64,000 bases of DNA from Flavimarina sp. Hel_I_48 (GTDB taxonomy: Bacteria; Bacteroidota; Bacteroidia; Flavobacteriales; Flavobacteriaceae), in assembly GCF_000733945.1 (NCBI RefSeq), contig NZ_JPOL01000002.1:754001-818000 (forward strand), given 5' to 3'. This document shows, one piece after another, positions 49,525 through 57,034 of the stretch. The notes under the pieces are model-generated. The model was not told where the DNA came from, made no database searches, and worked only from the letters and a program-made list of their open reading frames with translations. Position numbers and translations under genes: made by a program. The first letter of the stretch is position 1; each line of letters begins with the position of its first letter.

Positions 49525-49751
49525 ATTGCTTGAGATTATTGATTGCTATTGAATGCTGTTAAATATAGTGGAAATTCAATAGATCTATAAAAGACAAGCG
49601 ATTCTTATCGATTATCGGTCAATTTAGGGTCAAAATCAGTCGTTTTTGGAGCTAAATTCGACATTATTGGTTTTTCCTTACGCGTCAATCACGAAATAAT
49701 CCAACCCTCAACAACGATAAACCCACCGCCTATAATCTGAAAACAAACTTT

Positions 49752-49834
49752 GCGTTAGGGATTGCAGCAGAAATCCTTTTTGAGAGGCACGAGCAAAAAG
49801 ATTGTAGCGTAAAGCCCGACCCGCAGGGTAACGC
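49752..49834. repeat. 83-bp cloverleaf-like element, copy 1
   Basis: Ends GCGTTA and TAACGC form an outer stem. Inside are GGATT/AATCC, TTTTTG/CAAAAA and CCC/GGG arms. Confidence 0.75.
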
Positions 49835-49997
49835 CCAAAAAATATCAATTTATACCAAAAATCGGTTATTTTAGTGCTTAAATCAGTCGTTTTTACCAGT
49901 TAAAGCAGCATTATTGGCTTGCCCTCCTCTTTAGTCGGGAAATAGACCAGCTACTAATAACGATCAGCGCACCTCCTTTGATCTGAAAACAAACTTT

Positions 49998-50102
49998 GCG
50001 TTAGGGATTGCAGCGAATTTGTTAGCCCCTTAGGGGAGAAGGCCTTTTTGAGAGGCACTAGCAAAAAGATTGCAGCGCAAAGCCCGACCCGCAGGGTAAC
50101 GC
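49998..50102. repeat. 83-bp element, copy 2, with a 22-bp insertion
   Basis: Same ends and arms as copy 1, but the first arm is interrupted by 22 extra bases carrying the small palindrome CCCCTTAGGGG. Confidence 0.75.
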
Positions 50103-50267
50103 CCAAAAAATATCAATTTATACCAAAAATCGGTTATTTTAGTGCTTAAATCAGTCGTTTTTACCGGTCAAAGCGGCATTATTGGCTTCTTCCTTCCGCT
50201 TTAAGCGCGAAATAGACCAACTCCCAATAACGATCAGCGCACCTCCTTTGATCTGAAAACAAACTTT

Positions 50268-50350
50268 GCGTTAGGGATTGCAGCAGAAATCCTTTTTGAG
50301 AGGCACGAGCAAAAAGATTGAAGCGTAAAGCCCGACCCGCAGGGTAACGC
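50268..50350. repeat. 83-bp cloverleaf-like element, copy 3
   Basis: Nearly identical to copy 1 and lying 49 bp downstream of the EamA stop codon. The same arms are conserved. Confidence 0.75.
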
Positions 50351-50398
50351 CCAAAAAACATAAATTTATATCAAAAATCGGTTATTTTAGTGCTTAAA

Positions 50399-51283
50399 TC
50401 AGTCGTTTTTACCAGTTAAAGCAGCATTATTGACTTGCTCCCTCCGCTTTAGTCGGGAAATAGACCAACTCCCAATAACGATCAGCGCACCGCCCAGGAT
50501 CATATTCAAGGTCAGCGTTTCGTCCAGAATAAAATAACCCAGTGCAATGGCGCTCACCACTTCAAGGTACATCAGGGAAGTCGCGGTAGCCGCCGGCAAA
50601 TATTTAAGCCCGAAGAAAAAGAGTTTAAAAACACCAATACCGATGACAAAACCATAAAGCACACCCACGCCCAAATGGTCAATTTCCGCGGAACCAATAC
50701 CTGCCAGAAATGGAAGAAAAACGACTGCTCCAGCGATATTCTGATAAAAAATAAGTTGGTTTTTAGAAAAATTCTGCGCTTCGGTCTTAAAGAGAATCAC
50801 GGTGATCGCGTAGCCAACCGCAGAGCCCAAAGCCGCCAGCATCCCCACAAAATCATCTGATTCAAAACTAAAAGACTTGCCCGCGTAGGCCACAATAATC
50901 CCTAAAAATGCCATCAATAAAAAGAGCAGCTGTTTTCTGGGAATGGGCTGCTTGAGATAAATGGATTCTATCGCAGCGACAAACAGCGGGTAGGTATAAA
51001 AGAGCACCACCGCGTTGCCTATTGAAGTGTAGGTAAATGCGATCAGGTATAGATACATGCGCCCGGCATTGATGAGCGATGCCAGCAAAAGGGTCTTGTA
51101 ATTCCCCTTAAATTTGAGTTCGTTTTTTCTGTAAAGGGTAGGCAAAACAAAAAGCAAAGGCACAATAGCCCGAAACCAGCCCATGGTACCGGTACTCAAA
51201 CTGGTCATATACTTGATCAAAATACCATTTGTACCCGCAATTAGCGCACAAAGGATTACGGCATAAATAGCCTTTTTAGTCAT
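50399..51283 (-). CDS. EamA/DMT-family transporter
   Basis: A 294-residue inner-membrane protein with ten hydrophobic segments in two EamA halves (about 5-140 and 150-285), as in RhaT/YdcZ-like drug/metabolite exporters. The start M-T-K-K-A-I-Y at 51283 is preferred; the longer ORF from 51343 adds an unrelated polar stretch. Its last 31 codons are the parent of the tail copies lying downstream. Substrate unknown. Confidence 0.9.
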   Translation of the reverse strand: MTKKAIYAVILCALIAGTNGILIKYMTSLSTGTMGWFRAIVPLLFVLPTLYRKNELKFKGNYKTLLLASLINAGRMYLYLIAFTYTSIGNAVVLFYTYPLFVAAIESIYLKQPIPRKQLLFLLMAFLGIIVAYAGKSFSFESDDFVGMLAALGSAVGYAITVILFKTEAQNFSKNQLIFYQNIAGAVVFLPFLAGIGSAEIDHLGVGVLYGFVIGIGVFKLFFFGLKYLPAATATSLMYLEVVSAIALGYFILDETLTLNMILGGALIVIGSWSISRLKRREQVNNAALTGKND

Positions 51284-56794: not shown

Positions 56795-56866
56795 GACTTT
56801 GATTTTCATCATCTTATTAAAGTAAATTACATCATAATCCCGAATTCACAAAACAAATATCTTTTC

Positions 56867-56949
56867 GCGTTAGGGATTGAAGTGAAAATCCTTTTTGGGA
56901 GGCACGAGCAAAAAGATTACAACGTAAAGCCCGACCCGTAGGGAAACGC
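56867..56949. repeat. 83-bp cloverleaf-like element, solitary copy
   Basis: Same length and arms as the copies near the EamA gene, but diverged at several loop positions and with no gene-tail copy beside it. It lies between argH and the DUF433 gene. Confidence 0.75.
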
Positions 56950-57034
56950 CCAAAACCAATAAAACAACAGAAAATCAAAATAAATTATAGATATCAGTCT
57001 TTTCAATAGAAGAAAGCCGAAAAAAATTTTCCTA

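Follow-up and report, generated by a model that had tools for sequence, protein, structure and literature searches.

Directly beyond the stop codon of an EamA-family transporter gene in Flavimarina sp. Hel_I_48 lie further copies of that gene's own 3' end, which raises the question of how spare coding ends came to be stacked behind the gene to which they belong. The locus was analysed within a stretch of 64,000 nucleotides of contig NZ_JPOL01000002.1, here called the window, to which all coordinates in Table 1 refer.

Anatomy of the repeat units

The EamA stop codon is followed by three units in head-to-tail order, each 246-270 bp long (spacings 246-248 and 268-270). Read in the direction of EamA, each unit consists of about 46 nt of post-stop sequence, then a 97-119 nt core and finally about 31 codons copied from the gene's tail, including the stop codon. 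All three tail copies are on the strand of EamA and end in the gene's AAAAACGACTGA, and the junction between core and tail has the same position in every unit. On its far side, near the start of an M16 peptidase gene, the array finishes with the decayed tail Tc, the fourth tail when the live one (T0) is counted. The spacers match the live tail and its flank with E values of 1.6e-45 and 8e-44, and the left and right outer flanks match each other over about 139 nt (E = 1.2e-17); with values this low, chance resemblance of the tail copies is excluded. Spacings, alignment and E values confirm what had been noticed in the sequence beforehand, namely three head-to-tail units with same-strand copies of the EamA 3' end. 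In being direct head-to-tail units at a fixed locus, they are laid out like an intergenic tandem-repeat (VNTR) array.

The original prediction was largely right about the tails, but it missed that some 100 bp in every unit belong to a core of Flavo-1 (Rfam RF01705). Cores 1 and 3 exceed the gathering score of this family (42 bits), as does a single copy about 6.5 kb from the array (56850-56955, forward strand; Rfam match 56862-56940, 55.1 bits). Core 2 differs by its extra nucleotides with their palindrome, and a CCCCTAGCCCCTCTCGAGAGGGG-like motif is repeated in another genome (loci L179 and L182).

Table 1. Features of the EamA locus, with positions in the window
Feature	Position	Strand	Remarks
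EamA-family transporter gene (PF00892)	50399..51283	-	ATG at 51283, stop 50399-50401; open reading frame and Pfam match, E 5.7e-35
Live tail T0, last 31 codons and stop of the EamA gene	50399..50494	-	
46-nt stretch from EamA stop to core 3	50353..50398	-	Far copy similar for ~30 nt past the stop
Flavo-1 core 3	50256..50352	+	Rfam match 50263-50341, 50.9 bits
Nearest tail copy Ta	50151..50255	-	Frame open to the stop; joins the core at GATC
Unit 2 post-stop stretch	50105..50150	-	
Flavo-1-like core 2	49986..50104	+	22 extra nucleotides including CCCCTTAGGGG palindrome; below Rfam reporting threshold
Middle tail copy Tb	49883..49985	-	Lacks two bases; probably a mosaic, in part like Ta and in part like T0
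Unit 1 post-stop stretch	49837..49882	-	Identical to that of unit 2
Flavo-1 core 1	49740..49836	+	Rfam match 49747-49825, 51.6 bits; one mismatch to core 3
Farthest, decayed tail Tc (49636-49739) and ~30 nt post-stop	49606..49739	-	No core beyond

Flavo-1 as a dispersed and tandem repeat

Flavo-1 has so far been catalogued as a structured RNA without an assigned role, and its Rfam type is sRNA gene; here it behaves as a dispersed gene-end repeat that is often tandem. A DNA search of this genome gave 73 matches and the Rfam model 82, compared with 1-19 model matches in 12 Leeuwenhoekiella congeners (at most 150 candidates were scored per genome, and the count of one comes from a congener whose genome is 81% complete). 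The assignment to Leeuwenhoekiella follows the named relatives. Matches were present in 96 of 149 sampled genomes of the bacterial family. According to simple ORF calls, at least one gene end faces the repeat in 33 of 35 Flavo-1 groups, and 18 of the 35 lie between converging genes. RNA folding of eight single copies gave z-scores from -3.54 to +0.26. The passages of a published account that concern Flavo-1 place its hits sense or antisense to transcribed regions, with many in none (PMC9723704). The jump in copy number, the placement at gene ends and the tandem groups are indicative of a DNA repeat.

From copy number and dispersal we infer that Flavo-1 moves. Its positions can nevertheless be stable, since each of the six Flavo-1 loci in G003 is homologous to one of the nine in G009, the two genomes forming the closest congener pair (96% identical around EamA), and this comparison of sequences speaks against frequent movement in the pair. 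Between G004 and G005, six homologous pairs were found among the Flavo-1 loci fetched (11 of 19 and 9 of 19, respectively). G009 has three loci beyond those shared with G003, two of them weak matches. At one extra locus (L131) the difference extends over the entire intergenic stretch and the adjacent gene, and no clean empty site is seen; its counterpart in two related species is a short, unrelated intergenic stretch. In L131 itself, three copies of another intergenic repeat with GTCATTTCGAC adjoin the Flavo-1 copy at about 1140-1540.

Among the 40 core groups examined, 26 consist of a single core and 14 are tandem, with 2-8 cores; four of the latter are pairs, two of which (L071 and L079) include a partial core. 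The spacing of cores is similar inside a group and ranges from about 113 to 270 between groups, and the spacers are locus-specific. Cores are more alike inside tandem groups than between loci (mean likeness 0.917 and 0.869, respectively), and the groups therefore grew locally. Three of the 14 groups fall below the between-locus mean, namely L071, L079 and the EamA array, in which cores 1 and 3 have a likeness of 0.99 and each has 0.75 to core 2 with its extra sequence.

Comparison with 800 nt of flanking sequence covered 35 groups. Among these, a recognisable coding end serves as spacer in the EamA array only, and only there do both outer flanks share a long match; the L103 array, for which short stretches were compared, had no flank match. 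Capture of flanking DNA is not unique to the EamA array, however, since at least one spacer in each of L061 and L064 is similar to flanking DNA over 76-91 nt and the right flank of L070 holds another copy of a short spacer. In most other tandem groups, no spacer clearly matches the flanks. The EamA array is special by where the duplication ended, not by taking flanking DNA. A rule by which units start at the left edge of the core and take up right flank only was not upheld: similarity to the right flank was found in 5 of 14 groups and to the left flank in 3 of 14, with the EamA array included on both sides, at a nominal P <= 0.01 in at least one spacer with many comparisons made, and part of the similarity on the right may reflect an A-rich extension that belongs to the element. 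In L064 a second repeat (cgccacccattacgatttggcac...) is present in both spacers and in the right flank, where the spacer matches three places.

Outside this genome, G008 has one array (L148) with three cores and a period of about 201. In five high-copy genomes of other genera (21-126 matches), inspection by eye gave no pair of cores closer than about 1 kb among the matches listed. Forty loci taken from the best-scoring matches of these genomes (20 of 126 in G154, 10 of 45 in G098, 5 of 75 in G060, 3 of 67 in G071 and 2 of 21 in G118) had no second core nearby. A flank repeat was absent in 38 of the 40; the two loci with one are both from G060 and share the same motif, which looks like another dispersed repeat. 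Neither Flavo-1 arrays nor captured gene ends are reported in the literature found on Flavo-1, on Leeuwenhoekiella and on repeats in flavobacteria, among the matches listed. As far as this literature search goes, the tandem arrays and the captured coding end are apparently new, whereas the motif itself is known.

The tail copies and the live gene end

The closest relative genome (G012) encodes an EamA protein 84% identical to the one in the window, and has no array and other neighbouring genes at this locus. The live tail is recognisably orthologous to the tail of this relative until near its end, a part which is poorly conserved among orthologues.

Within the final 30 sense codons, ten positions distinguish Ta from T0, seven synonymous and three conservative (R/K, Q/E and V/A), and a further synonymous site (GGC/GGA) lies one codon upstream of this stretch. 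The eight synonymous and three conservative changes counted in the original prediction, in an open frame, are reproduced in this way. It had been proposed from them that the nearest tail diverged while coding. The synonymous excess is present but modest: three or fewer replacements among ten randomly placed changes were obtained in 0.6-1.8% of simulations (P 0.006-0.018), and the binomial P is about 0.02-0.06 if some of the changes fell in a constrained live gene. Tb, with five mismatches, is indeed nearer to the live tail than Ta with its ten, as had been stated, but it lacks two bases rather than one. The heavy decay ascribed to Tc was borne out by an identity of 70-72% to the live tail, an in-frame stop and a net loss of one base.

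G012 and Tc served as outgroups for polarising the sites, with the reservations that Tc itself belongs to the array and that the G012 alignment beyond the stop codon is little certain. Three sites are decided by both, and at all three it is Ta, not the live gene, that shares the base of the outgroups; replacements account for two of them. With G012 as the sole outgroup, the change falls in the live gene at six of nine sites and in Ta at three. In orthologues including that of G012, KE- or KEE-like residues stand in place of the REQ of T0, so that Ta keeps the older state at this position.

The middle copy has a composite appearance. Tb matches Ta at sites 5-10 and 134-146 and T0 at sites 46-91, save for four sites private to Tb and site 69, at which T0 alone differs among the tails. 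The eight Ta-like and eight T0-like sites fall into five runs (P about 0.03 by hand calculation). Judged by both outgroups, Ta and Tb have derived bases in common at sites 6 and 134, and T0 and Tb at sites 50 and 60; Tc only adds site 10 to the former pair, and G012 only adds site 65 to the latter. Tb is probably a mosaic, Ta-like at both edges and T0-like in the centre, with the modest backing of about three polarised sites per side. That the tail copies have recombined is well supported but not proven, and exchange of sequence between the live EamA gene and the array is probable, in one direction or the other, as judged from these alignments. The earlier suggestion that the copies exchange with the gene by conversion gains some support from the mosaic, which is modest since the sites are few.

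Origin of the array

We consider it likely that a tandem array of the dispersed repeat Flavo-1 captured the end of the EamA gene and that recombination then reshuffled the copies. In the first step, a Flavo-1 copy lying some 45 bp beyond the EamA stop codon would have undergone tandem duplication, with breakpoints at the core's edge and at a GATC within the EamA gene. EamA would have kept its own end while the spare ends remained downstream; the oldest of them, Tc, would have decayed, and the core expected beyond it would have been lost. Unequal homologous recombination or gene conversion may have produced and rearranged the younger units, probably involving the live gene end at least once, and no dedicated recombinase would be required. 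Tandem duplication is supported by the anatomy of the units, the dispersed core, the 14 tandem groups among 40, the greater likeness of cores inside groups, the flank capture in L061, L064 and L070, the mosaic look of Tb and the confinement of the tail copies to this locus, and a common junction in all three units is expected if they are copies of one event. It is awkward for this explanation that at its far end the array closes with a tail where a core would be expected, which implies either that a core was lost or that the first step was different, such as an insertion with a long target duplication. The synonymous excess between Ta and T0, which is unlike plain decay, the divergence of core 2 from its neighbours against the within-group rule, the many tandem groups without a clear spacer-flank match and the failure to find this array in any relative also count against it.

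An insertion of Flavo-1 near the gene end that duplicated a target of about 139 bp on both sides, followed by unequal crossing-over that multiplied core and tail, would need no lost core, and the array does begin and end with a tail and post-stop stretch, the two matching over that length. This origin appears rather unlikely, however, as a direct repeat is absent in 21 of 22 single-core groups with 800-nt flanks (the match in L080 is weak, E 0.005), the loci of the five other genomes also mostly have none, and so long a target duplication is unusual for small elements. It is possible, though we rather doubt it, that Ta or T0 was imported by homologous recombination from a strain with an EamA allele that had diverged as a coding sequence, and that the tail it displaced stayed behind in the array. 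Such an import could account for the synonymous excess, and is compatible with either tandem duplication or target duplication. The siding of G012 and Tc with Ta at three sites, the KEE-like residues retained in Ta and the mosaic look of Tb are in its favour; against it, the changes are few and their excess shrinks if the live gene is constrained, G012 alone divides the sites between live gene and Ta, and the tail end is poorly conserved in orthologues. A protein database search (5.8 billion entries) gave no donor strain, the nearest EamA protein among the matches listed, other than the window's own, being 87% identical. Tandem repeats are prone to misassembly, but an assembly artefact is barely credible for a 3.67-Mb contig of a genome in 4 contigs, with units that differ at many sites, unlike a collapse or false duplication.

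Integrative elements can insert at gene 3' ends and restore them, and the original prediction had put forward, as one of two alternatives, an element of this kind, supplying a new end, pushing old ends downstream and relying on an integrase in trans. Spare ends stacked behind the EamA gene, with the farthest the most decayed, resemble such a system. In contrast to it, however, the EamA unit holds neither integrase nor cargo, and its ends would be stacked by repeat duplication. No integrase was found in the unit or among the four neighbouring genes tested by Pfam (a peptidase, the EamA transporter, an isochorismatase and a nicotinate phosphoribosyltransferase). In this genome the tail and post-stop stretch occur four times, all at the EamA locus; elsewhere in 13 Leeuwenhoekiella genomes, where a search for other elements carrying the 31-codon tail had been suggested, only the G012 orthologue (52 nt) and matches of 23-34 bases were found. 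The order of the tails does not follow their likeness, given that the middle one is nearer to the live tail than the nearest one, and the repeated DNA is a Flavo-1 core that is tandem at 13 other loci without a recognisable gene tail. With no further copy of the tail found in the 13 genomes, a live tail that is orthologous and a repeat that is a dispersed one, restoration of the gene end by an integrating element is left unsupported, and we regard it as very improbable. We see in the EamA array an ordinary process with an uncommon result, not a new integration system.

The EamA locus is an example of a repeat copying a coding end and leaving the copy where recombination back is possible. Going further, Flavo-1 would be a non-autonomous DNA element and not an RNA gene, amplifying in place here together with flanking DNA, and the spare coding ends would keep exchanging with the live gene; this extended reading is a long shot, and if true, the C-terminus of the transporter would evolve by a cassette-like route. 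Among known systems, mycobacterial interspersed repetitive units and the like are short intergenic repeats that form direct tandem arrays at many loci. By description the EamA array may be likened to them, with the differences that its unit holds a copy of a 31-codon gene end and that the period differs by locus.

Flavo-1 also resembles REP/REPIN sequences with their RAYT (TnpA-REP) enzymes in being small, dispersed and mostly near gene ends, but differs from them in that no cognate Y1 (RAYT) transposase was found in this genome, nor a copy of the repeat beside the Y1 gene loci scanned. The one match to the Y1 transposase family (PF01797) in this genome scored 21.4 bits, under the cut-off of 23. 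A RAYT from a relative (L101) was matched in 10 of 18 genomes searched, including G154, which has the highest copy number (126 Flavo-1 matches), and had no match in this genome, G098 or G118 (82, 45 and 21 Flavo-1 matches, respectively). No Flavo-1 was found near Y1-family genes at 15 loci (6 + 9), and three cores gave chance-level matches only (E 0.1 or more) against 26 Y1-family loci. A Y1 transposase or RAYT as the mover of Flavo-1 is unsupported by these results, and together with the tail search of 13 genomes they point, at the level of sequence comparison, to neither a candidate enzyme of the Y1 class nor a second site. The expansion of Flavo-1 to 82 matches in this genome occurs without any RAYT-type enzyme found there. 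In the passages of PMC6006769 on the Bacteroidetes TnpA-REP subclass 2.6, the genes are flanked by atypical structures that are copied elsewhere in the genome. Two open reading frames, neither with Flavo-1 nearby, resemble this subclass (L191 of G154, 1444-1992, and L101 of G008, 1231-1794), and both contain the motif YIHNNP.
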